Under the pieces are notes generated by a model. It saw nothing but the letters and a program-made list of their open reading frames with translations. It did no database searches and was not told where the DNA came from. Shown here one piece after another: positions 49,950 through 64,000 of a stretch of 64,000 nt of DNA. A program made the translations under genes and the position numbers. Source of the DNA: Pseudomonadota bacterium. GTDB taxonomy: Bacteria > Desulfobacterota > Binatia > UBA9968. Each line of letters starts with the position of its first letter. Positions within the stretch are counted from its first letter, which is position 1. The DNA lies in assembly GCA_021324155.1 (NCBI GenBank), contig JAJPJQ010000018.1, forward strand, positions 1 to 64,000, written 5' to 3'.

Positions 49950-50026
49950 GCGCCCGTAGCTCAATTGGACAGAGCACCAGACTACGGATCTGGGGGTTGG
50001 GGGTTCAAATCCCTCCGGGCGCGCCA
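49950..50026 (+). tRNA. tRNA-Arg (ACG)
   Basis: The 7-bp acceptor stem GCGCCCG / CGGGCGC, D arm AGCTCAATTGGACAGAGC, anticodon stem CCAGA / TCTGG with loop CTACGGA (anticodon ACG), T arm GGGTTCAAATCC and encoded CCA are complete. A degenerate copy of this gene lies at 63419-63483. The hydrogenase operon and histidine kinase lie between the two. Confidence 0.95.
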
Positions 50027-50392: not shown

Positions 50393-51391
50393 ATGGACAA
50401 CCCTCGATCGATTGAAGAGATTAACGTCCTGTGGGTTACCGCCGGTCTCGGTTGCGATGGCGATTCTGTGGCGATGACCGCGGCCGGACAGCCGAGCATC
50501 GAAGATATCGTGCTCGGCGGAATTCCCGGAATTCCAAAGGTGAATTTCTATCATCCGCTGTTCCACCCTGAGGCCGGGGACGATTATGTGCGGTACTTTC
50601 ATTCCGCCGCGGAAGGAAAGATGTCGCCTTTCATTCTCGTGATCGAAGGGTCCATACCAAACGAAAAAAATAAGGCGGAAGGCTATTGGGCGGCAATGGG
50701 CCGCGATAAGACAACGAACCAGCCGATTCCAACGTGCGACTGGATCGATCGTCTGGCGCCGAAGGCATGGGCAGTGTTGGCTGCAGGCACCTGTGCGACC
50801 TACGGCGGCATTCACGCGATGGAAGGTAACCCGACCGGCTGCATGGGACTGCCGGATTATCTCGGCTGGGAGTGGAAATCGCAGGCAGGCATTCCGATCG
50901 TCTGCGTGCCGGGTTGTCCCGTTCAGCCGGATAATTTCATGGAGGCCTTTCTGTATTTGCTGCGACAGGCTGCCGGCGGCGCGCCAATGATTCCGCTCGA
51001 CGATGCGCTGCGACCGACATGGCTTTTCAGCGCGACGATCCACGAGAACTGCGACCGCGGCGGTTACTATGAGCAGGGCGATTTCACCGATAAATACGGG
51101 AGTCCGCACTGCATCGTTAAATTGGGCTGTTGAGGCCCCGTCGTTCAGTGCAACGTCGGTAAACGTGGCTGGATGAATGGCCTAGGCGGTTGCCCCAACG
51201 TCGGCGGTATTTGCATCGGCTGCACGATGCCCGGCTTCCCGGACAAATTCATGCCATTCATGGATCAGCCTCCGGGTTCTTTTCTGTCGTCTCATGCGAT
51301 CACGACATACGGCAAGGCGATCCGCGCGCTGCGTCGGTTCACGCAGGCGTCGCTTAACAAGGAGCCTGACCGCGGGCGCCGCGGATCGTGA
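50393..51391 (+). CDS. hhyS: Group 1h [NiFe]-hydrogenase small subunit with in-frame TGA codon
   Basis: The small subunit carries the FeS relay. Proximal-cluster positions are C21, D24 (LGCDGDS), C134 and C175; the Asp in place of Cys is typical of actinobacterial-type group 1h enzymes. H217, C220, C240 and C246 fit the distal cluster; C253, C267, C274 and C277 include the medial ligands. No Tat signal is present. Codon 247 (51131-51133) is TGA, just after C246 in IVKLGC and before GPVVQCN, and the frame continues intact to a second TGA at 51391 (332 codons). Other family members have Trp, Lys or Arg there (from memory). Recoding, a nonsense mutation or a sequence error are possible. Confidence 0.93.
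51138..51159 (+). promoter_or_regulatory. Hairpin just after the in-frame TGA of hhyS
   Basis: CCGTCGTT and AACGTCGG pair with one T-T mismatch around the 6-base loop CAGTGC. The loop begins 12 bases after the TGA. The GU in the loop and the mismatched U in the stem recall bacterial SECIS elements. The distance is shorter than in known examples, and GC-rich coding sequence forms such stems by chance. I list it only as a candidate. Confidence 0.25.
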
Positions 51392-51467: not shown

Positions 51468-53237
51468 ATGGCTGAGACAACGTCCGACAAAAACAAGCTG
51501 GTCGAAATGACCTGGGACCCGATCACGCGTGTGGTCGGCAGCCTCGGTATTCACACGAAAATCGACTTCGGCCGCCGCGAGGTGATCGAGTGTTATACCA
51601 CATCGTCGATTTTCCGCGGCTACAGCGTCTTCATGCAGGGTAAGGACCCGCGCGACGCTCACTTCATCAGTAGCCGCATCTGCGGCATCTGCGGCGACAA
51701 CCATGCGACATGCTCGGTGTACACACAGAACATGGCTTACGGCGTGAACCCGCCGCGACTCGCCGACTGGATCATCAATCTCGGCGAAGCAGCGGAGTTC
51801 ATGTTCGACCACAACATCTTCCAGGAAAATCTCGTCGGCGTCGATTTTTGCGAGAAGATGGTACGCGCGACCAATCCCGGCGTCTGGGAACGGGCCGAGA
51901 AGACCGAGGCGGCGCATGCGGCCGACCACGGCTACAGAACCATCGGCGAGATCATGTGCGCGCTGAACCCCTTCGAGGGCGAGTTTTATCGCGAAGCGCT
52001 CCAGATGAGCCGCGTCGCGCGCGAGATGTTCTGCCTGATGGAAGGACGGCACGCTCATCCGTCGACGCTCTACGCCGGCGGAGTCGGGACGGTCGCAACC
52101 GTTCAGCTTTTTACCGAATACTTGACGCGGTTGATGCGCTATATCGAATTTCTTAAACGAGTCGTGCCGTTGCACGACGATCTGTTCAATTTTTTCTACG
52201 ACGCGCTGCCCGGCTATGACAGAGTCGGCGAGCGCCGCATCATGCTCGGCTGCTGGGGCTGTTTCCAGGAGCCGCAGGCGTCGAACTTCCGCTACAGCGA
52301 CATGACCGAGTGGGGTCAGAAGATGTTCGTCACGCCGGGCATCATCGTCGACGGCCGCCTTGTGACGCGCGATCTCGTCAAGATCAATCTCGGCATCCGA
52401 ATTCTCCTGGGAAGCTCATTTTACGAAGACTGGGAGGGCAAAGATTTGTTCGTCACGACAGATCCAGTCGGAAATCCAGTCGACAAACGCCACCCGTGGA
52501 ACCAGCACACGATCCCCAAGCCGCAGAAGCGCGAGTTCGGCGGTAAATACAGCTGGGTGGTCGCGCCGCGGTGGTTCGACGGGCACGACCATCTAGCGCT
52601 CGACAGCGGCGGCGGGCCGCTGGCGCGTCTCTGGTCTACGGCGCTGAGCGGTCTGGTCGATATCGGATATATCAAAGCGACTGGCGAAGGAATCGTCATC
52701 AACCTGCCCAAGACCAATACCAAGCCGGAAACGACTTTCGAATGGAAGATCCCCGGGCGCAATAACACGATCGAGCGCAACCGCGCGCGCAGCTACTTTC
52801 AGGCGTACGCCGCCGCCTGCGCCCTTTATTTCGTCGAGCAGGGCTTGAAGGAAGTTAACTCTGGAAAGACAAGCACGTGGGAGCCTTTCACGGTGCCGAA
52901 AGACGGCATCGGTTGCGGCTTCACGGAAGCGGTCCGCGGCATGCTATCGCATCATATGGTGATTCGCGACGGCAAGATCGCTAATTACCACCCCTATGCG
53001 CCCACGCCGTGGAACGCGAGCCCGCGCGACAGCTACGGCACACCGGGCCCTTACGAAGACGCAATTCAGGGTCAACCGATTTTCGAGGAAAATCCTCCGG
53101 ATAAATTCAAAGGCATCGACATCATGCGCACCGTCCGGAGCTTCGACCCGTGCCTGCCCTGCGGCGTGCATATGTATTTGGGCGGCGGCAAGGTGCTGGA
53201 GAAGCGGCACTCGCCGACGCTGTTCCATCCCGAGTGA
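51468..53237 (+). CDS. hhyL: Group 1h [NiFe]-hydrogenase large subunit
   Basis: This 589-residue subunit holds the NiFe(CN)2CO site. The N-terminal ligand motif is RICGICGDNH near residue 69. The C-terminal motif is DPCLPCGVH near 558, followed by a 21-residue tail (MYLGGGKVLEKRHSP...) that the maturation protease should remove after His. No selenocysteine codon is present. Long family-specific stretches (CWGCFQEPQASNFRYSDM, EGKDLFVTTDP) resemble high-affinity, oxygen-tolerant H2-oxidising enzymes. It starts 77 bp after hhyS, with a GGGGAAG RBS. Confidence 0.95.
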   Translation: MAETTSDKNKLVEMTWDPITRVVGSLGIHTKIDFGRREVIECYTTSSIFRGYSVFMQGKDPRDAHFISSRICGICGDNHATCSVYTQNMAYGVNPPRLADWIINLGEAAEFMFDHNIFQENLVGVDFCEKMVRATNPGVWERAEKTEAAHAADHGYRTIGEIMCALNPFEGEFYREALQMSRVAREMFCLMEGRHAHPSTLYAGGVGTVATVQLFTEYLTRLMRYIEFLKRVVPLHDDLFNFFYDALPGYDRVGERRIMLGCWGCFQEPQASNFRYSDMTEWGQKMFVTPGIIVDGRLVTRDLVKINLGIRILLGSSFYEDWEGKDLFVTTDPVGNPVDKRHPWNQHTIPKPQKREFGGKYSWVVAPRWFDGHDHLALDSGGGPLARLWSTALSGLVDIGYIKATGEGIVINLPKTNTKPETTFEWKIPGRNNTIERNRARSYFQAYAAACALYFVEQGLKEVNSGKTSTWEPFTVPKDGIGCGFTEAVRGMLSHHMVIRDGKIANYHPYAPTPWNASPRDSYGTPGPYEDAIQGQPIFEENPPDKFKGIDIMRTVRSFDPCLPCGVHMYLGGGKVLEKRHSPTLFHPE

Positions 53238-53258: not shown

Positions 53259-53867
53259 ATGCTGGAAGAGACGCAAGATCAGAAAACGTCCGGTCGCGAT
53301 ACCGAAGAACACTGCGATATTTGCGCACAGCGCGTCGGCGGCGAGCATCCGCATGTGGTCGACCTCAAAACGCGGCGGCTTTTGTGCGCCTGCCGCGCGT
53401 GCCATTTTCTCTTCGGCGCGGGCGGTGAAAAGTACCGCTCGGTTCCCGGCGAATGCTTCCACGCGCCCGATTTAATGATCTCCAATTTGCAGTGGGACAG
53501 ACTCGAAATCCCCGTCGGTATCGCCTTTTTCTTCTTCAACAGCTCGGCGCGCCGGACGGTTGCCTTCTATCCGAGCCCCGCCGGCGCGATGGAATCTCTG
53601 CTGCCGCTCGATGCGTGGAACGACATCGCTATGGCGAGCCCGCGGCTCCGCGGTCTCCTGCCCGACGTCCAGGCGCTGCTCGTCCGCAAGACCGGCGACG
53701 GCTTCGACTGTTATATCGTTCCGATCGACGCCTGCTATGAGCTCGTCGGTCTGATCCGTCTCGGCTGGCGAGGCTTTGACGGCGGCGAAAAAGTTCGCGC
53801 CGACATCGAATCGTTTTTCGCCCGTCTGCGCGCGCGCAGCGGGAATCCGGCTCAAAGCGCAGCCTAG
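53259..53867 (+). CDS. Hydrogenase-associated Cys-rich protein (DUF5947-like)
   Basis: The 202-residue protein lies 22 bp after hhyL. Its N-terminal part has a Cys pattern CDIC and CACRACHFLF, with His between, suggesting a metal or FeS site. The rest (GIAFFFFNSSARRTVAFYPS, LIRLGWRGFDGGEKVRADIE) resembles proteins I recall beside group 1h hydrogenases and filed as DUF5947. It may be an electron-transfer or assembly factor. The gene ends 2 bp before the next. The DUF assignment is from memory. Confidence 0.75.
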   Translation: MLEETQDQKTSGRDTEEHCDICAQRVGGEHPHVVDLKTRRLLCACRACHFLFGAGGEKYRSVPGECFHAPDLMISNLQWDRLEIPVGIAFFFFNSSARRTVAFYPSPAGAMESLLPLDAWNDIAMASPRLRGLLPDVQALLVRKTGDGFDCYIVPIDACYELVGLIRLGWRGFDGGEKVRADIESFFARLRARSGNPAQSAA

Positions 53868-53869
53868 CG

Positions 53870-55195
53870 ATGGCGGAAGTCAAACAGACTTTGGACTTGT
53901 CGGCGGCGCGGCGTATCGCCGACGCCGTCCTCTACGAGGGCTATGTCCTCTATCCTTACCGCGCCTCGGCGCAGAAAAATCGCTTGCGCTGGCAATTCGG
54001 CATCATCGCGCCGCGGGCGGATAGCGGCGCGGCGGGAGAGCCGTGGGAGATGCAAACCGAGTGTCTGCTGGAAGGTTCCGCCGATACGGTCATTCATGTG
54101 AGAGCGCGTTTCTTGCAAGTTCAATCACGCACGGTCGAGCAAGCGGCGGAGCGCGGCTTCACTCGGGTCGATGCGCTGATCGCCGGCGACGCGACGATCG
54201 TGCCGTGGGAGGAAGGCATCGAGCGCGAGGTCGATGCGGTGCTGACGAGTGGCGAACTTCTTCACGCGGCGAAAATCATTCCCTTCGAGATCGCCGCCGT
54301 CGAAAAGATGGAAAATGTATTCAGCGAAGGCGGAAGGCTTATCGGCAGGATCGTGCGCCAGACGTGGAATCTTACGGGAAAATTAGTGATCACCGCCGAG
54401 ATGATCGATGCGCCTGCGCCCGCCTTGAAGCTCGGCGTGCGCGTCGAGAACGACTCGTTGGGGGGCAATGGCTGCGACGGTCGCGACGAAGCGCTCCGCC
54501 GCTCGTTCATCGGCGCGCACTTCATGCTCGGCGCCGAGGCGGGAAGCTTCATCTCGCTCATCGACCCGCCCGCATGGGCGGCGCAAGCCGCTGCGGCCTG
54601 CGCCAATCTGCGCGCCTGGCCGGTTCTCGTCGGTGATCGCACCCGGCGCGATATGATGCTGGCGGCGCCGATCATCCTTTACGATTACCCCGAGATCGCG
54701 CCGGAGAGCCGCGGCGATTTCTTCGACGCGACCGAGGTCGATGAGCTGCTGACACTGCGTACCATGACACTGACTGACGAAGAGAAGCGGGAGGCGCGCG
54801 ACACCGACGCGCGCGCCGCGGCGATATTGCGTCGCGTCGACAAGATGACGCCCGAGATCATGGGCGAACTTCACGGTGCTATCAGAAGCCGACGCCAAAC
54901 CGCGGTGGCGGAGCGCCCCGTCATGATCGACGGCGTCGCGGTTGGGCCCGGAAGCCGCGTACGTCTCCATCCCGGAGCCCGGCGCGCCGACGCCCAGGAC
55001 ATGTTTCTGGAGGGGCGGGTTGCGACGGTCGAGCAAATACTGGTCGACGCGGAAAAGCGGACCTATCTGGGAGTGACACTCGTTGACGACCCGGCGGCCG
55101 ATCTGCATCAGTGGTACGGTCGGTTTCTTTATTTCTCGCCCGACGAAGTGGAACCCTGGGAGACATCATCGAAGGCAGTGGGCTACGGCAAATAA
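53870..55195 (+). CDS. Hydrogenase-operon protein of unknown function
   Basis: This 441-residue soluble protein starts 2 bp after the DUF5947-like gene and ends 8 bp before the protease gene. It opens RRIADAVLYEGYVLYPYRAS and has a central beta-rich part (LITAEMIDAP-like segments, FIGAHFMLGAEAGSFISL), then AAPIILYDYPEIAPESRGDF. A C-terminal beta domain resembles an SH3-like barrel (VGPGSRVRLHPGARRADAQD). I recall similar proteins only in group 1h hydrogenase loci. No catalytic motif is recognisable. A role in cofactor delivery or complex assembly is inference. Confidence 0.78.
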   Translation: MAEVKQTLDLSAARRIADAVLYEGYVLYPYRASAQKNRLRWQFGIIAPRADSGAAGEPWEMQTECLLEGSADTVIHVRARFLQVQSRTVEQAAERGFTRVDALIAGDATIVPWEEGIEREVDAVLTSGELLHAAKIIPFEIAAVEKMENVFSEGGRLIGRIVRQTWNLTGKLVITAEMIDAPAPALKLGVRVENDSLGGNGCDGRDEALRRSFIGAHFMLGAEAGSFISLIDPPAWAAQAAAACANLRAWPVLVGDRTRRDMMLAAPIILYDYPEIAPESRGDFFDATEVDELLTLRTMTLTDEEKREARDTDARAAAILRRVDKMTPEIMGELHGAIRSRRQTAVAERPVMIDGVAVGPGSRVRLHPGARRADAQDMFLEGRVATVEQILVDAEKRTYLGVTLVDDPAADLHQWYGRFLYFSPDEVEPWETSSKAVGYGK

Positions 55196-55203
55196 GGTTC
55201 GGC

Positions 55204-55695
55204 ATGCAGAAAAAAGTGCTCATCGCCGGCATCGGCAATATCTTTCTCGGGGACGACGGTTTCGGCGTCGCGGTAGCCAAGCGGCTGATGGGAATGACAC
55301 TGCCGCCGTGGGTCACCGTCGTCGACTTCGGTATCCGCGGGATTCATCTCGCATACGAGATGCTCGAAGGCCGGTATGCTTCGGCGATTCTCATTGACGC
55401 CGTCCGGCGCGGTGGCCGGCCGGGAACGGTTTATGTCATCGAGCCGGACATCGGCGAAATCGAAGCAAACGGCGGCTCCGACGCGCACGGCATGGATCCA
55501 GCGACAGTTCTCGCCATGCTGAAGACGCTCGGCGGAACGCCGGGAAAGATTTACATCGTTGGCTGCGAGCCGGCGTGCGTCGACGAGGTTGTCGGGCTCA
55601 GTCGGGAGGCGACGCACGCCATCGACGATGCGACCGAGCTGATCCTTAAGATTCTCTGGTGCTCGGACGCGGCGGCTGGCGCTCGCGACGGTTAA
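55204..55695 (+). CDS. Hydrogenase maturation endopeptidase (HyaD/HybD type)
   Basis: The start at 55204 (MQKKVLIAGIGNIFLGDDGF) is the family N-terminus; the longer track ORF overlaps the previous gene. At 163 residues it has the GIGNIFLGDDGFG motif with the metal-binding Asp and Glu-like positions, the central FGIRGIHLAYEM and VGCEPA segment. It should cut the C-terminal extension of the large subunit after nickel insertion. The upstream gene ends 8 bp before, and hypA follows after 5 bp. Confidence 0.92.
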   Translation: MQKKVLIAGIGNIFLGDDGFGVAVAKRLMGMTLPPWVTVVDFGIRGIHLAYEMLEGRYASAILIDAVRRGGRPGTVYVIEPDIGEIEANGGSDAHGMDPATVLAMLKTLGGTPGKIYIVGCEPACVDEVVGLSREATHAIDDATELILKILWCSDAAAGARDG

Positions 55696-55700
55696 TCAGC

Positions 55701-56051
55701 ATGCACGAGTTCGGTTTATGCGAGGCGATCGTGGACGCCGTGTGCCGCCGGGCCGCCGGCCGGCGAGTGGCGCGCGTGCGCGTCCGCATCGGCGCCATGC
55801 ATCGCGTGGACAAGGAATCTTTCCGACAGGGTTTTTCCTGGGCCGGAAGCGAGACCGAGGCGGCAAATGCCGCGGTCGATCTTATTGTGACGGCGGTGCG
55901 AGCCGTTTGCGCTTCCTGCCAGACCGAGGCGACATTCGAGGAGTCCGCAACGTTGTGCCCGCGTTGCGGCGCGGCGGATATGAACATCGTGCAGGGGAAC
56001 GAGCTGATACTCGAATCGATCGAATACGCCGAAGAATCGACTCCGCTATGA
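55701..56051 (+). CDS. hypA: Hydrogenase nickel incorporation protein HypA
   Basis: The start at 55701 gives MHEFGLCEAIVDAV, with the nickel-binding N-terminal MHE motif. The 116-residue protein has a zinc site CASC...CPRC. It inserts Ni into the large subunit, normally with the GTPase HypB. No hypB lies in the operon. The stop overlaps the hypF start by 4 bp. Confidence 0.95.
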   Translation: MHEFGLCEAIVDAVCRRAAGRRVARVRVRIGAMHRVDKESFRQGFSWAGSETEAANAAVDLIVTAVRAVCASCQTEATFEESATLCPRCGAADMNIVQGNELILESIEYAEESTPL

Positions 56052-58327
56052 AAGAGCGGCGGCAAATTCTCGTCGAGGGCGTGATTCAGGGGGTGGGTTT
56101 TCGTCCATTCGTCTACCGACTCGCGACGAAAAACCGTCTCGCCGGGTCGGTCGTCAACGACGGGAGCGGCGTTGTCATCGAGCTGGAAGGCGAGCGCGCA
56201 CACCTCGACGATTTTCTCTCCGATCTGCGCGAGCATCCGCCGCCGCTGGCGTCGATCGACCGCATCGTCCACGGCATCATCCCGACGATAGGAGAAACGG
56301 GCTTCCGCATCGCGGAGAGCCGCTGCGAGGACGAGCGTCGGGCGCTGGTGACGCCCGACGTGGCTGTTTGCGACGAGTGTGTGGCCGAGCTTTTCGATCC
56401 AAACGACCGACGCTATCGTTATCCGTTCATTAATTGCACAAATTGCGGCCCGCGCTTCACCATCGTGCAGAACGTTCCGTACGATCGGAAAGCCACAACG
56501 ATGTCGGACTTCTCGATGTGCGCTGAGTGCCGGCGCGAGTTCGATGATCCCGCCGACCGGCGCTTCCACGCGCAGCCGAACGCATGCGCACGCTGTGGAC
56601 CGAGCGTCAGTCTACTCGATTGCCACGGACATATCGTTCACGATTCAGATCCGATTCGGGCCGTCGCCGCTCTCCTCAGCAACGGCGCGGTCGTGGCGGT
56701 CAAAGGTCTCGGCGGTTATCACCTCGCGTGCGATGCGTTCGATGAAACGGCGGTTCGGAAATTGCGAAAGGGAAAGAGGCGCGAAGAAAAGCCGTTCGCT
56801 CTCATGGCGCGCGATCTCGGCGACGTGCGCTCGCTTTGTTTCCTTGAGCCTGCGGAAGAGGCGCTGCTGCGTTCGGGCCAGCGGCCGATTGTCTTGCTCA
56901 AAAGACGCGCGTCTGCTGGCGTCGCGCCGGGGGTCGCACCGGGGCAGCTGCATCTCGGAGTGATGCTGCCGTATACGCCGCTGCATCATCTGATGCTCCA
57001 AGCTGCCGATCGGATTTTGGTGATGACGAGCGGCAATTCGAGCGAGGAGCCGATCGCTTGCGAAGACGCCGATGCGGTTCGCCGCTTGAGCGGCATCGCG
57101 GATTACTTCCTCGTGCATGATCGTAAAATTCAGGCTCACTGCGACGATTCGGTCGTCCGCTTCGCCGGCCGAAACGAGCTCATCATCCGCCGCGCACGCG
57201 GCTATGCCCCGCGGCCAATCGCGGTTGCCGAGGCGTTCGCCGCGCATGTCCTCGCCTGCGGCGCCCATCTGAAAAACACTTTCTGCCTGGGAAAAGACGA
57301 CCGGGCTTTTGTGAGCCAACATATCGGCGATTTATCAAATTTCGAAGCATTCACCGCCTTCGCGGTGGAGATCGATCGCTATCAGCGACTCTTCGACATC
57401 GAGCCCAGGCTTGTGGCGCACGATCTACATCCAAGGTATCTCTCGACCCAATACGCGCTGGACCTTCCAGGCGTTACTCGGGTACCTGTTCAGCACCATC
57501 ACGCGCATATCGCGAGCTGCATGGCCGAGCATGGGCTGGAAGGGCCGGTTATCGGCGTCGCCTTCGACGGGTTGGGCTACGGCGCCGATGGCGCTATGTG
57601 GGGTGGCGAATTTTTAATCGCCACGCTGCGTCGCTACGAGCGCTGCGCCCATTTGCGCTACGTCCCGCTCGCCGGCGGCGACGCTGCGGTGCGCCAGCCG
57701 TGGCGCGCGGCGCTCGCGTATATGACGGATGCTCTGCCGGACGATCCGCTCTCGATCGGTCTGCCTGGGTGGAATGGCATATCAAAAGACAAATTTAGTC
57801 TGGTGCAGTCCATGATGGCGCGGGGAATTAATACAGTCCCGACTTCATCGTGCGGGCGCCTGTTCGACGCCGTGGCCTCGATCTTGGGCTTGCGTCATGA
57901 AGCCAGTTACGAAGGCCAGGCCGCGGTGGAGCTGGAGACCGCCGCCGGTGACGGCGTGGAAGGCGAATATCCCTTCGAGATTTACGAAAGTGGCTGCGCG
58001 GAAATCGATCTGCGGCCTGCGATCCGCTCGATTGTGGGCGATGTGATCGACGGGCTCGACACCTCTGTCATCGCGGCGCGATTTCACAACACCGTCGTGT
58101 CGATTGTCGTTACGGTCTGCGAGCGGCTGCGCAGGCGCGAAGGTTTGCGACAGGTGTGCTTGAGCGGCGGGACCTTCCAAAACGTCTATCTTCTCGAACA
58201 CACCATCCCGCGCCTGGAGAGTCGCGGCTACGAAGTTTTCCGGAATATTCGGGTGCCGCCGAACGACGGCGGAATCTCCTTCGGCCAAGCCGCGGTGGCG
58301 AACGCGACGATTCGGGAACGAGACTGA
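56048..58327 (+). CDS. hypF: Carbamoyltransferase HypF
   Basis: The ATG at 56048 (MKERRQILVEGVIQGVGFRP) overlaps hypA by 4 bp; the track ORF beginning at 55718 is a read-through of another frame. The 759-residue enzyme has an acylphosphatase domain (about 1-90) and two zinc fingers near 110-180 (CDEC...CTNC, CAEC...CARC). A YrdC-like domain and a Kae1-like domain with QHHHAHIAS near 481 follow. It makes the CN ligand of the NiFe site from carbamoyl phosphate, transferring to HypE. Confidence 0.95.
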   Translation: MKERRQILVEGVIQGVGFRPFVYRLATKNRLAGSVVNDGSGVVIELEGERAHLDDFLSDLREHPPPLASIDRIVHGIIPTIGETGFRIAESRCEDERRALVTPDVAVCDECVAELFDPNDRRYRYPFINCTNCGPRFTIVQNVPYDRKATTMSDFSMCAECRREFDDPADRRFHAQPNACARCGPSVSLLDCHGHIVHDSDPIRAVAALLSNGAVVAVKGLGGYHLACDAFDETAVRKLRKGKRREEKPFALMARDLGDVRSLCFLEPAEEALLRSGQRPIVLLKRRASAGVAPGVAPGQLHLGVMLPYTPLHHLMLQAADRILVMTSGNSSEEPIACEDADAVRRLSGIADYFLVHDRKIQAHCDDSVVRFAGRNELIIRRARGYAPRPIAVAEAFAAHVLACGAHLKNTFCLGKDDRAFVSQHIGDLSNFEAFTAFAVEIDRYQRLFDIEPRLVAHDLHPRYLSTQYALDLPGVTRVPVQHHHAHIASCMAEHGLEGPVIGVAFDGLGYGADGAMWGGEFLIATLRRYERCAHLRYVPLAGGDAAVRQPWRAALAYMTDALPDDPLSIGLPGWNGISKDKFSLVQSMMARGINTVPTSSCGRLFDAVASILGLRHEASYEGQAAVELETAAGDGVEGEYPFEIYESGCAEIDLRPAIRSIVGDVIDGLDTSVIAARFHNTVVSIVVTVCERLRRREGLRQVCLSGGTFQNVYLLEHTIPRLESRGYEVFRNIRVPPNDGGISFGQAAVANATIRERD

Positions 58328-58328
58328 T

Positions 58329-58600
58329 ATGTGTCTCGCGATACCTGGAAAGATCCTTGAGATATTCGACTCCGCCGGCCTTAGAATGGCACGGGTCGAG
58401 TTCGGCGGCATAGCGCGCGACGCCTGTCTGGAGCTGGTGCCGGAGGCGGCTGTGGGCGACTATATAGTCGTGCACGTCGGCTTCGCCATCAGCAAAGTCA
58501 ATCGTGAGGAAGCCGAGCGTAGTTATGCCCTGCTTGACGAGATGGGTCAACTGGACGAGCTTCAAGCCCCTCTCATCGAGGAGGAGAAAACGCGGAAGCG

Positions 58601-58604
<4 letters not shown>
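58329..58604 (+). CDS. hypC: Hydrogenase assembly chaperone HypC
   Basis: This 91-residue protein begins [12 protein letters not shown], with the essential Cys2 that binds the Fe(CN)2CO unit. It forms a complex with HypD and delivers the iron group to the large subunit. It starts one base after the hypF stop and overlaps hypD by 4 bp. Confidence 0.96.
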
Positions 58605-59722
<1,118 letters not shown>

Positions 59723-59724
59723 CC

Positions 59725-60318
59725 GTGACGCAGCCGATGCGGGAAAAGATTCTACGCAAATGCCGCGAGTCGGTCGCGGTGCAGGAAAAGTTTTTCGACC
59801 AACACGCCGACCTGATCGGCGCGCTCTGCGAAGAGATGGCGGCGCGATTCCAGCGCGGCGCCAGGCTCTGGGTCATGGGCAACGGCGGAAGCGCGTGCGA
59901 CGCGCAGCACGTCGCGGTCGAATTCGTCCATCCGATTATCGACAAACGCCGGCCGCTGCCCGTCCTCGATCTCACCAGCCAAGTACCGATCTTGACCGCG
60001 ATCGCCAACGACAAGGATTTCAGCCGCGTTTTTGTCGATCAGATCGAGCTCAGCGGCCGCGCGGACGACATGGTGCTCGCGCTTTCGACGAGCGGCCAGT
60101 CGGCGAATCTAATCTACGCGCTCGGCGCCGCGCGAAAAAAAGAAATGCTCACGATCGCCCTCGCGGGCAAGGACGGCGGGCGTATCGCCGAGAGCGCCGA
60201 GTACTGCTTCGTCGTGCCGAGCTTCAGTATCCATCGCATTCAGGAATGCCACGTCGCGCTGCTGCACATCATCTGGGACCTCGTCCATGTCGCGATGGGA
60301 GAGGAGGACGTTGTCTGA
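59725..60318 (+). CDS. SIS-domain phosphoheptose isomerase-like protein (GmhA-like)
   Basis: I chose a GTG at 59725, which has GGAG five bases upstream; an ATG at 59737 is possible, and the track start lies inside hypD. The 197-residue protein has GmhA landmarks (FFDQHADLIGALCEEMA, LWVMGNGGSACDAQHVAVEF, ALSTSGQSANLIYAL). It sits between hypD and hypE with a one-base overlap to hypE. Similar genes occur in other group 1h operons as I recall. Its hydrogenase role is unknown. Confidence 0.88.
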   Translation: MTQPMREKILRKCRESVAVQEKFFDQHADLIGALCEEMAARFQRGARLWVMGNGGSACDAQHVAVEFVHPIIDKRRPLPVLDLTSQVPILTAIANDKDFSRVFVDQIELSGRADDMVLALSTSGQSANLIYALGAARKKEMLTIALAGKDGGRIAESAEYCFVVPSFSIHRIQECHVALLHIIWDLVHVAMGEEDVV

Positions 60319-61385
60319 TGGCGACCAACGGAACCGCGCCCGATCCTCTCAACGGCAGCTGTCCCGTACCGATCGCCGAGCACGGCCGGATCGTGCTCGG
60401 TCACGGCAGCGGCGGCAAGCTCAGCGGCGAACTTTTGCAGGACATTTTCCTTCCGGCCTTCGATAACGAGCATCTGGCGCGTCTCGGTGATCAGGCGATG
60501 CTGGACGTCAATAGAACGCGGCTCGCTTTCACGACCGACTCATTCGTTGTGACGCCAATCTTCTTCCCCGGCGGCGACATCGGCCAGCTGGCGATCAACG
60601 GCACGATCAACGATCTTGCGATGGGCGGCGCCCGCCCTCTCTACATCGCGGCGGCTTTCATACTGGAAGAGGGACTGGAAATCGATGAGCTTCGACGTGT
60701 GGTCGAGTCGATGCGCGCCGCGGCCGCCGCAGCCGGCGTGCAAGTCGTGACCGGCGACACCAAAGTCGTGGAGCGCGGCAAAGGCGACAAGCTCTTCATT
60801 ACCACGACCGGCCTGGGCATCGTCGATAAGCCGGTGGCGATCTCCGCCGATCGGGCGCGGCCCGGCGATAAAGTGATCCTCAGTGGCACGATCGGCGACC
60901 ACGGCATGGCGATCATGTCGCGGCGCGAAAACCTCGAGTTTGAGGGAACTATCGAGAGCGACAGCGCCGCGCTCAACGGCCTCGTTTCCACCATGATAGC
61001 TGCAAGCCCGGATATCCACTGCCTGCGCGACCCAACGCGAGGCGGCGTCGCTACGACGCTGAACGAGCTGGCGGTTGCTTCGGCGGTGGGAATCGAGATC
61101 GACGAGAAGGAAATTCCTGTCCGGGAAGCCGTCAGAGGCGCGTGCGAGATCATGGGTCTCGATCCGCTTTACGTGGCAAACGAAGGAAAGCTTGTGGCGA
61201 TCGTCGCGCCGGACGCGGCGGATTCGATTTTGTCCGCCATGCGCTCGCATCCGTTGGGAAAAGATGCCGCAATCGTCGGTGAAGTCCTGGCGGAGCATCC
61301 ACGAATGGTGGTGTTGAAAACCACGATCGGCGGGAGACGCATCGTGGATGTTCTGTTCGGAGAGCAATTGCCGCGCATCTGTTGA
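60318..61385 (+). CDS. hypE: Carbamoyl dehydratase HypE
   Basis: The ATG at 60318 overlaps the isomerase stop (TGATG); the track ORF from 59586 is another frame joined in front. The 355-residue protein has RIVLGHGSGGKLSGELLQD, the ATP-binding FTTDSFVVTPIFFPGGDIG and TRGGVATTLNELA. It ends in PRIC, whose terminal Cys receives the carbamoyl group and becomes thiocyanate for the NiFe CN ligand. It is the last gene of the hydrogenase operon. Confidence 0.96.
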   Translation: MATNGTAPDPLNGSCPVPIAEHGRIVLGHGSGGKLSGELLQDIFLPAFDNEHLARLGDQAMLDVNRTRLAFTTDSFVVTPIFFPGGDIGQLAINGTINDLAMGGARPLYIAAAFILEEGLEIDELRRVVESMRAAAAAAGVQVVTGDTKVVERGKGDKLFITTTGLGIVDKPVAISADRARPGDKVILSGTIGDHGMAIMSRRENLEFEGTIESDSAALNGLVSTMIAASPDIHCLRDPTRGGVATTLNELAVASAVGIEIDEKEIPVREAVRGACEIMGLDPLYVANEGKLVAIVAPDAADSILSAMRSHPLGKDAAIVGEVLAEHPRMVVLKTTIGGRRIVDVLFGEQLPRIC

Positions 61386-61434
61386 GACCGTTTATTGAAG
61401 TTTGACGGAAACCTTTAGATTTTAATTGCTGCTT

Positions 61435-63171
61435 ATGACCGCCGAAAAAAACAAGACGTTTCTGCCGGGATTCGAAAGGTTCCTTGCCGGCGACGGCCGG
61501 CCGCCGGAGGTATCCGAGGCGATCGATGTCCTTGAAGATCTCGCCGGCTTCTTTCTCGACGCGCGCGTCGAAGCGAATCGAATAAGCCGAGCGCGCTCGA
61601 ACGATTACGAGACGATCTACCGCATTCTCGCAGAGCAGATCCCCGCCGTCGTGTTTCTTGCCTTCCTCGACGAAGGATTCGGTCAGGCATATGTCAGTCC
61701 GCACATCGAGACCGTGCTCGGCTTTACCCAGCAAGAATGGCTCAACGACCCAGTGCGCTGGTACAAGCAGCTGCACCCCGATGACAAAGAAAGGTGGAGC
61801 CGTGAAGCGGCCGAGATGTTTCTATCCGGCGCGCCGCTCAAGTCCACTTATCGTGTCATCGCCCGGGACGGGCACACGGTATGGTTTCAATGCGACGCGC
61901 GCATGATCCGTCACGACGACGGAAGTCCCTGGCTGGTGCACGGGGTCGCGTTCGATATCACAGAGCTGAAGGAATCGCAGCACGCGCTCGCGCGCGATGT
62001 CGCAGAACGCCAGCGCCTTGAGCGGCAGCTCTTGCAAGCGCAGAAGATGGAAAGTATCGGCACCCTTGCGGGCGGAATCGCGCACGACTTCAACAATATA
62101 TTGAATATTATTCAGGGATATTCCGCGCTGATTATGGAAACCTCGGGGGATCGGCGGAAGCTCCGCGAGAACGTCCAAGTCATTCGGGAAACCGTCGAGC
62201 GGGGCGCCGTGCTGGTCCAGCAGCTGCTGACGGTCGCGCGCAAGACCGAAGTCAAATTCGAGCCCGTCGACATCGATGAGTTGCTGCGCAAAGTCGCCAA
62301 ACTGACGGGCGAGACCTTTCCCAAGACGATCACGATCTCGCTCGAATTGCATTCGAATCTCCCACGAACGCAGGCGGATCCGAACCGGCTGGTACAGGCG
62401 CTGCTCAATCTATGCGTCAATGCGCGCGACGCGATGAATGAGAGCGGAACGCTGACGCTGCGCAACGGCATCGTCTCCGGAAGTGACCTTCGGCATCGAT
62501 TCCCGGATGCGGACGAGCAGCGGTATGTCTCGGTTGCTGTCGCAGATACAGGCCCGGGAATGGAAAAAAACATTCGCGACCACATCTTCGATCCATTTTT
62601 CACGACCAAAGAACCAGGTAAAGGCACCGGGCTAGGTCTGCCGATGGCGTATAGTATAGTGCGGGATCATAATGGCTTCATCGACGTGCAAAGCGAGCCG
62701 GGACGAGGCACGACCTTCTGCATTTACATTCCTTTGATTATTCCCGACGCGGGGAAAAGCGTCGTTCAAGAACTTGCGATAAATGAGATGCAAAGAAGCC
62801 AAGAAAGCGGTCAAACGGTTCTTTTTGTCGAAGACGAACCCCACCAGGTCAACCTGATCCGCGACTTCTTGGAGCGGAGCGGTTATCGGGTGCTGATAGC
62901 ACGGGACGGCGTGGAGGCGGTGAAAATTCACCATCATCACAGCGACCAGATCGCGGCCGTCATTCTGGATTTATCATTGCCCAAGCTCAACGGATGGGAC
63001 GCTTTTTTATCCATTAAGCAAAAGCAACCCACGGTGCGGACCATCTTGGCTACGGGCTATATAACTCCGGATCAACGCTCAATGATGTTGAGTGAAGGCG
63101 TGATCGATATACTTCCCAAGCCTTACGTGCCAAACGATCTACTAAAACGGCTCCGCGAGGTCATAACTTGA
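61435..63171 (+). CDS. Hybrid histidine kinase (PAS-HisKA-HATPase-REC)
   Basis: I chose the ATG at 61435 over the TTG at 61426. The 578-residue protein has a PAS domain at about 60-180 ([20 protein letters not shown]), HisKA with His in [13 protein letters not shown] near 216, HATPase motifs ([25 protein letters not shown]) and a C-terminal receiver with Asp near 510 ([13 protein letters not shown]). No transmembrane helix is seen, so it is a cytosolic sensor. It lies 49 bp after hypE and may sense redox or H2-linked signals, which is inference. No output regulator is adjacent. Confidence 0.93.
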
Positions 63172-63380
63172 TTTGGTCCCCGCGAGCAGGCTTGAAGGCG
63201 AGCCTCGGCGTTCCTATGAACGTGAATCGTTGTGTTGAATTACCTCGTGAGCGTCTGGCGGTCCGGGATTATTTTGCACAACGGACTGGCCATTCTTTTA
63301 TTAGCGTCTTTCTCTTAGCCGGCGGTTTAGTATCCCAAATGTATCCAGACCCAGCCAGAAGCAGCCGAAACTAAAGAAAA

Positions 63381-63411
63381 AGGCCGGCGCCGCTACGAGG
63401 GAACGGCCTTG
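63381..63411 (+). terminator. Rho-independent terminator after the histidine kinase
   Basis: AAGGCCG and CGGCCTT form a 7-bp stem with a 17-base loop, preceded by an A-run and followed by TGCTTTCTT. It lies about 210 bp after the kinase stop and directly before the tRNA-Arg remnant. The spacer 63172-63380 shows no gene I trust. Confidence 0.5.
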
Positions 63412-63418
63412 CTTTCTT

Positions 63419-63483
63419 GCCCATGTAGCTCAGGGAAAAATCTACGGATCTGGTTGGGGGTTAAAATCCTCCTGTTGCGCCAT
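63419..63483 (+). repeat. Degenerate tRNA-Arg copy (possible island attachment-site remnant)
   Basis: Blocks match tRNA-Arg at 49950 in order: GTAGCTCA, CTACGGATCTGG, TTGGGGGTT, AAATCC and the final GCGCCA. The acceptor stem is not complementary and the D and variable regions are altered, so it is not a working tRNA. It marks the far side of the hydrogenase-kinase block and fits a tRNA-derived repeat left by an integrated element or a decayed duplication. Confidence 0.65.
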
Positions 63484-63654
63484 ATCCGGCAAGTTGCGCC
63501 CGCCAAGTTTTAGGTCGCTCCGAGTTTCCCAGGTCGTTTCCAAGACATTCAGGCCGTGGATCTCACGTGCGCGCAGTCGCCGCGACTCGCCGAACATCTC
63601 ACGTGATCGAGACTTGAACAGCGCTGGGGTAATTGCTTTTCGTCGACCATTCAC
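63442..63654 (-). CDS. Small ORF overlapping the PRC-like gene, doubtful
   Basis: A GTG at 63654 overlaps the stop of the PRC-barrel-like gene by 4 bp, typical of coupled genes, and encodes 70 residues. The sequence (FGESRRLRAREIHGLNVLET) is not recognisable. Its last part runs through the tRNA-Arg remnant, so the gene may have been truncated by insertion or may not be real. Confidence 0.25.
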   Translation of the reverse strand: MNGRRKAITPALFKSRSREMFGESRRLRAREIHGLNVLETTWETRSDLKLGGRNLPDMAQQEDFNPQPDP

Positions 63655-63920
63655 CGGGCGGAACGCGTCTTGCCTTTTTCCGTTGGACTGACAATCAGTA
63701 TCCCGGCGTGGATTTTTCTAACCGATTCCCACGAAATTCGCTCGCGCACCACTCTTTTAAGGCCAAGGCGCTCCGCCAGTCCGCCGTAGCCATAGACGAA
63801 CTCACGGATGTCCGCCTCGTTCGTTTGCGGCTTGGGTTCGCAGCGGAGATCGATTAGATGTCCGAGCCTCCGGCCTCCCTCGTCGGCGATTTCCAAAAAT
63901 AAGAGATCGGATAGCTTCAT
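63651..63920 (-). CDS. PRC-barrel-like small protein
   Basis: The 89-residue protein has KLSDLLFLEIADEGGRRLGH and FVYGYGGLAERLGL, the pattern of PRC-barrel domains, which bind RNA-processing or membrane partners. The start overlaps the stop of an upstream partial gene by 4 bp (ATGA), so it is in an operon. The specific role is unknown. Confidence 0.65.
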   Translation of the reverse strand: MKLSDLLFLEIADEGGRRLGHLIDLRCEPKPQTNEADIREFVYGYGGLAERLGLKRVVRERISWESVRKIHAGILIVSPTEKGKTRSAR

Positions 63921-64000
63921 GATCGTAAAACTTTTCTCATGAAACGCGCTGCTTTGCGATCCGCCTTCCCGAGCCCCAACTCGGCGGCGGTAGACCTTAA
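63917..64000 (-). CDS. 3' end of an unidentified gene running out of the window
   Basis: The minus-strand frame is open from 64000 to a TGA at 63917-63919 and ends LGKADRKAARFMRKVLRS. The 4-bp stop/start overlap with the PRC-like gene supports it as a real C-terminus. Only 27 residues are visible; no identity can be given. Confidence 0.5.
   Translation of the reverse strand, partial: LRSTAAELGLGKADRKAARFMRKVLRS

Follow-up and report, generated by a model that had tools for sequence, protein, structure and literature searches.

The cytoplasmic, oxygen-tolerant [NiFe]-hydrogenases of group 1h (Hhy/AH) are encoded in clusters already known to contain genes of unknown function (PMC4377017, PMC12319191, PMC13332983). 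In the AH cluster of C. necator H16, hofK and hofG (PHG064 and PHG065) are accompanied by four open reading frames of unknown function (PHG066-069) and by a protease gene, PHG070 (PMC4377017). When RefSeq names are assigned to the PHG numbers by position, using that publication, the order on pHG1 reads hofK, hofG, a NifU-like gene (PHG066), a DUF5947 gene (PHG067), a DUF6084 gene (PHG068), the gene for a protein here termed p2 (PHG069) and the protease gene (PHG070). In M. smegmatis, HhyE (MSMEG_2718) is required for Hhy activity, its loss abolishing activity even with an artificial acceptor, and the same publication describes MSMEG_2717 as homologous to PHG067, which had earlier been proposed as an electron acceptor in R. 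eutropha (PMC6883350). Thermomicrobium and Methylacidiphilum have been reported without HhyE (PMC6883350), so that this protein is usual in group 1h, not strictly defining for it, and Hhy function may be possible in its absence. Experiments on DUF5947 or p2 were not found in the searched literature.

The locus considered here lies in a stretch of 64,000 nucleotides, hereafter the window, comprising positions 1-64,000 of contig JAJPJQ010000018.1 (GCA_021324155.1) from the 98% complete genome of a Pseudomonadota bacterium. Its hydrogenase genes are on the + strand. The small subunit gene hhyS lies at 50393-51391, with an in-frame TGA at codon 247, and the large subunit gene hhyL follows at 51468-53237. 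The motifs of HhyL, SRICGICGDNH (L1) and SFDPCLPCGVH (L2), are of the type listed for group 1h large subunits (PMC5364354), the first residue of L1 being S, not T; the protein shares 69-75% identity with group 1h HhyLs, and its best match in the PDB belongs to the actinobacterial-type hydrogenase of C. necator (HofG, chain 5aa5_C, 1036 bits). Between hhyL and the gene for a HycI/HupD-type maturation protease (55204-55695; PF01750, TIGR00072) lie two intact open reading frames with ATG starts, one of 202 aa at 53259-53867 and one of 441 aa at 53870-55195. The tight packing that the first-pass annotation had described for this segment was borne out, the successive spacers measuring 21, 2 and 8 bases, with a single correction of one base to the first, which had been given as 22 bp. 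The two proteins are orthologues of C. necator PHG067 and PHG069, respectively, at 41-43% identity and in the same order before the protease; unlike the C. necator cluster, the window holds neither the NifU-like gene nor the DUF6084 gene. The M. smegmatis Hhy operon likewise pairs a hydrogenase of group 1h with a homologue of PHG067, MSMEG_2717 (PMC6883350), and differs in that the HhyE needed for activity there is absent here.

On the 3' side of the protease gene the order is hypA-hypF-hypC-hypD-SIS-hypE, with hypA (55702-56051), hypF (56048-58327), hypC (58329-58604) and hypD (58601-59722) assigned by local HMMs. No match to hypB was obtained in the window's cluster (55696-64000), though hypA, hypF, hypC, hypD and hypE are present. 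The SIS-domain (GmhA-like) gene within the hyp genes, at about 59725-60318, has to our knowledge no known role in hydrogenase maturation; an SIS match stands near hhyL in 54 of the 136 loci listed. At the other end, a tRNA-Arg(acg) gene (49950-50026) ends approximately 370 bases 5' of hhyS and could mark an integration site. A genomic island at this tRNA was considered and set aside: no attachment repeat was found, since the 26 bases of the tRNA 3' end occur only once in the window.

The distribution of the two families was followed from p2 outwards. Scanning of contigs with p2 peptides returned at least 593 stretches, at least 556 of them relatives, and in the best 80 of these at least 556 loci, picked on p2 similarity alone, hhyL was present in every one where the contig extends. 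Local HMMs were then used to annotate 143 loci with DUF5947 or p2 (the best 80 of at least 556 together with plasmid and whole-genome loci, four of the 143 being duplicates), and hhyL was found in 132 of them; in the remaining 11 the contig stops just upstream of the accessory block. Both families were present in the same 12 plasmid records, and 30 whole genomes contained 32 copies of DUF5947, the two extra copies also being located in hhyL clusters. The usual gene order in most loci listed is hhyS-hhyL-HhyE-DUF5947-DUF6084-p2-protease. A different order, p2-(protease)-hhyS-hhyL-HhyE-DUF5947 without DUF6084, was observed in the Actinomycetota loci L031, L063, L066, L072, L077, L080, L089, L181 and L186.

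Genome-wide co-occurrence was tested for DUF5947 against HhyL, in two phyla and a sparse sample of the window's phylum. In Acidobacteriota (257 genomes), the 12 genomes with DUF5947 are exactly those with group 1h HhyL, and among 397 Actinomycetota genomes DUF5947 occurred in 38, HhyL of group 1h score in 38 and both in 35; the Fisher p values quoted for these two phyla, 4e-43 and 7e-21, are nominal because the genomes share kinship. Most of the discordant Actinomycetota genomes reflect contig ends, namely G847, G928 and G1029, which show DUF5947 alone, and G957, which shows HhyL alone; G842 has a truncated hhyL and no accessory genes. A real exception is G700 (L146:9403-10821), where the order is hhyS-hhyL-NifU-like HhyE-DUF6084 and a low-complexity stretch occupies the place of DUF5947; no other contiguous group 1h cluster among the loci listed lacks DUF5947 while keeping hhyL intact. 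The family is also absent from 14 Actinomycetota genomes whose sole matches are more distant, lower-scoring hydrogenases. Distance correlations between the families ranged from 0.72 to 0.96 and were given no weight, because shared ancestry would yield them as well as co-evolution and they do not separate the two. The restriction of relatives to group 1h loci put forward in the first-pass annotation is borne out by these data: hhyL accompanies the two families in 132 of the 132 loci with enough contig, the whole-genome DUF5947 test concurs, and frequent occurrence away from a hydrogenase was not seen in the neighbourhood and whole-genome checks, as DUF5947 tracks HhyL genome-wide and the discordant cases are mostly contig ends. 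Confinement of both families to group 1h hydrogenase clusters is well supported, and the case for a dedicated accessory role of DUF5947 and p2, which are retained even in rearranged clusters, is a strong one.

The 202-aa protein (53259-53867) had been introduced as uncharacterised. This holds for both proteins as regards function in the searched literature; the first is nonetheless a member of a named Pfam family that had been missed, DUF5947 (PF19372; E 3.7e-69, 232.3 bits against a cut-off of 25, covering profile positions 1-176 of 177). Its description as Cys/His-rich is confirmed by an N-terminal segment with the pattern CxxC-x7-HxH-x10-CxCxxC (residues 19-48, positions 53313-53402), whose predicted metal ligands C19, C22, H30, H32, C43, C45 and C48 are invariant in 136 of 136 or 137 of 137 distinct covering homologues among the loci listed; P105, P107, G109, W170, G172, G175 and G176 are likewise invariant. 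An AlphaFold2 model (pLDDT 91.2, pTM 0.86) places at the N-terminus a finger made up of the CxxC, a hairpin (32-35/40-43) and a helix (46-53) whose start carries C45 and C48. Read from the secondary structure of the model alone, C19, C22, C45 and C48 would constitute a treble-clef-like putative metal finger, and H30, H32 and C43 could possibly provide a second putative site. A Foldseek search of the PDB yielded no significant match to the fold (best E 0.057, prob 0.09), and the NifU-like HhyE was rejected as a paralogue, no similarity being found. The CxxC...CxxC arrangement is presumably a further likeness to the HoxR-type assembly factor. As with this rubredoxin-like factor of the R. eutropha group 1d system, DUF5947 is small, Cys-rich and dedicated to an oxygen-tolerant hydrogenase (PMC6883350); unlike the HoxR type, it is larger, its invariant ligands number three more, and it ends in a domain without a recognised fold.

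An invariant ligand set of this kind raises the alternative that DUF5947 is the electron acceptor of HhyS, in which the Cys/His residues would hold an iron-sulfur or rubredoxin-type iron and pass electrons from the distal cluster to the quinone pool, with p2 docking the relay. The role proposed for PHG067 in R. eutropha, with which MSMEG_2717 shares homology (PMC6883350), would make DUF5947 a redox subunit and count against a function in assembly. DUF5947 is, moreover, the only accessory protein with an invariant ligand set, given that among the loci listed the CxxC of the NifU-like segment of HhyE is absent in 73 of 134 (lost or changed to CxC), with fewer than two Cys in 13, C. necator included. 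By way of that motif, then, HhyE cannot act as an iron-sulfur carrier in every case, and should one of the accessory proteins carry electrons, DUF5947 is the likelier one. The SH3 domain of p2, described below, also resembles electron-transfer docking proteins (PMC9342900). Against this stand the predicted succession of knuckle, hairpin and helix with two ligands at its start, which resembles a structural zinc treble clef, and the effect of HhyE loss, which alone kills activity even with an artificial acceptor (PMC6883350) and fits assembly at least equally well. A role as electron acceptor is regarded as somewhat unlikely.

The 441-aa protein, p2 (53870-55195), matched no family in Pfam or NCBIfam. 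Its AlphaFold2 model (pLDDT 82.1, pTM 0.69) consists of an N-terminal helix holding an invariant EGYxLYPYR..KN motif, a beta-sandwich at about residues 60-194, a less certain middle part and helices, and a C-terminal beta domain. The top PDB match in Foldseek was DrmAB of the DISARM defence system (7s9v_A, E 2.7e-4, prob 0.98), with a poor rigid superposition (TM 0.23, rmsd 22 A, 325 columns). Independently, at the sequence level, the PADLOC DrmA HMM (PDLC02573) matched 30 of 42 p2 family members, the best at E 1.3e-7 (p2 54-297 against DrmA 79-322) and the window protein at E 1.6e-4. When ten family members were scanned one by one, nine gave DrmA matches in the same register, and residues 54-321 of p2 align with positions 79-339 of the profile in one register. 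From these profile and fold matches the N-terminal two thirds of p2 (the beta-sandwich and the part that follows, about residues 60-321, positions 54047-54832) appear to be remotely related to the N-terminal part of DrmA. The statement that this protein has no known motif thus stands as far as Pfam and NCBIfam families are concerned, and gives way for its N-terminal two thirds. Published work calls the N-terminal half of DrmA a structural chassis (PMC9142583), and for class 1 DISARM a jelly roll has been described within it (PMC12458937); the word hydrogenase is absent from the latter publication. In contrast to DrmA, p2 is encoded in a hydrogenase operon and shows no SF2 helicase (RecA) domains, being 441 aa long, without a Pfam domain and matched by the DrmA profile only N-terminally, which speaks for domain sharing, not for membership of the defence system. 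When 26 Streptomyces genomes were searched for genuine DrmA, the hits comprised one p2 (L209) and otherwise partial matches to different regions of the profile. Comparison of p2 with PDB sequences returned ribosomal S4 only, at chance level, no viral relatives of p2 were found, and DUF6084 was dismissed as a paralogue for want of similarity (hhalign prob 0.5%).

The SH3-like C-terminal part suggested by the first-pass annotation was upheld by structure prediction and fold search. This domain, placed at about residues 351-430 (positions 54920-55159) from the secondary structure of the model, matched PetP in two Foldseek comparisons (7r0w_V, prob 1.00, TMt 0.77, rmsd 2.6; 2n5u, prob 1.00, TMt 0.65), with rmsd of 2.4-2.6 over 72-74 aligned columns for the pair, and nitrile hydratase beta more weakly; no Pfam or PDB sequence match was obtained for it. 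PetP of cytochrome b6f shares its SH3 fold with PsaE, FTR-alpha and NdhS, all of which modulate electron transfer (PMC9342900). Unlike PetP, p2 has no sequence-family match and its partner would be a [NiFe]-hydrogenase.

Both builds have been considered in terms of what the accessory proteins might do. We tentatively propose, at slightly less than an even chance, that DUF5947 and p2 are dedicated accessory factors of the group 1h enzyme which act in its assembly or docking. On the side of the small subunit, DUF5947 would act together with the NifU-like HhyE; the likeliest role is that of an adaptor while clusters are inserted or the enzyme is assembled, and one at the electron exit is possible. 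That the two proteins act together is suggested by G034, of the window's class, where HhyE-like and DUF5947 parts share one open frame of about 339 aa (L013:9162-10178), a gene fusion. p2 would be a scaffold or docking protein whose body is the DrmA-type beta-sandwich and whose PetP/PsaE-type SH3 domain docks onto the hydrogenase or onto the redox partner of that enzyme. This tentative reading is favoured over a permanent electron carrier, which we hold to be on the unlikely side, because the layout of DUF5947 is treble-clef-like and the crystallised enzyme stands in the PDB without these proteins: HofG of C. necator is present there, and no PDB chain matches DUF5947 or p2. Telling against assembly or docking are the G700 cluster without DUF5947 and the remoteness of the DrmA similarity (TM 0.23). 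The same structural evidence bears on a further possibility, namely that DUF5947, p2, HhyE and DUF6084 are permanent structural subunits which oligomerise Hhy or tether it to the membrane, in the manner of HucM of group 2a. Hhy is membrane-associated with no known anchor (PMC13332983), Huc is scaffolded in this way by HucM (PMC10017518), and p2 resembles part of the DrmA half termed a structural chassis (PMC9142583); however, the sole solved group 1h enzyme (5AA5) was found as HofG, with no PDB chain matching either family, and a membrane segment is present in neither DUF5947 nor p2. A permanent structural role is judged to be decidedly improbable.

The operon in the window is atypical in its small subunit gene and in its gene content, two points that the first-pass annotation had missed. 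The TGA at codon 247 of hhyS (51131-51133) falls at the Trp of LGCWGP, a position occupied in homologues by Trp in 62 (TGG) and by Lys in three (AAG), and identity to C. necator HofK is no lower after it (61/85) than before (164/246). Selenocysteine and a recoded Trp were both rejected as genuine recoding, since homologues have Trp or Lys and never Cys, and since hhyL and hypA themselves end in TGA. The codon is read either as a nonsense mutation of recent date or as an error in the sequence, and the window copy may be inactive. A NifU-like HhyE gene is found in 131 of the 132 hhyL loci (a set that includes the best 80 of at least 556), the window being the sole locus without it; the rest of the window's 98% complete genome gave only weak partial matches to HhyE, and DUF6084 was not found in that genome. 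DUF6084 is optional, as it is missing from 17 further loci, among those listed, that keep hhyL, HhyE, DUF5947 and p2. In this organism HhyE and DUF6084 have disappeared from the operon or were never part of it, and from these absences and the TGA the window copy is taken to be a variant that does without HhyE or else a cluster in the course of being lost.

Decay can also be put in a stronger form, in which both open reading frames of the window are functionless remnants of a dying copy; this would concern the window alone and is compatible with any family-level reading. The in-frame TGA, the genome without HhyE or DUF6084 and the state of a cluster in G011, from the same family, where hhyS and most of hhyL are lost and p2 is broken, would all be accommodated. 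Every other gene of the window's cluster is open, however, hhyS is as conserved past the TGA as before it, and one wrong base in a draft assembly would account for the codon; we find functionless remnants unlikely. The G011 cluster itself (G011:C172, L012) has kept HhyE, DUF6084 and DUF5947 and has apparently decayed.

Judged by the searched literature, four points are new: the strict specificity for group 1h across genomes, the composition of p2 from DrmA-like and PetP-like parts, a DUF5947 fold without a match, and an operon without HhyE and DUF6084. Through its DrmA-like region p2 would tie an accessory protein of a hydrogenase, unexpectedly, to a helicase of a defence system. A bolder combination, in which DUF5947 is the missing redox link of the group 1h hydrogenases and p2 a docking subunit in which a chassis domain of DrmA type is joined to an SH3 domain of PetP type, is speculative and very unlikely; if true, an architecture otherwise seen in a helicase of phage defence would have been put to use in coupling hydrogen oxidation to respiration. 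Group 1h hydrogenases are a main sink of atmospheric hydrogen and let bacteria live on traces of H2. Occurring nearly one-to-one with the enzyme, DUF5947, with its invariant set of predicted metal ligands, and p2, whose two-part construction can be interpreted, are direct candidates for the assembly or wiring of Hhy.
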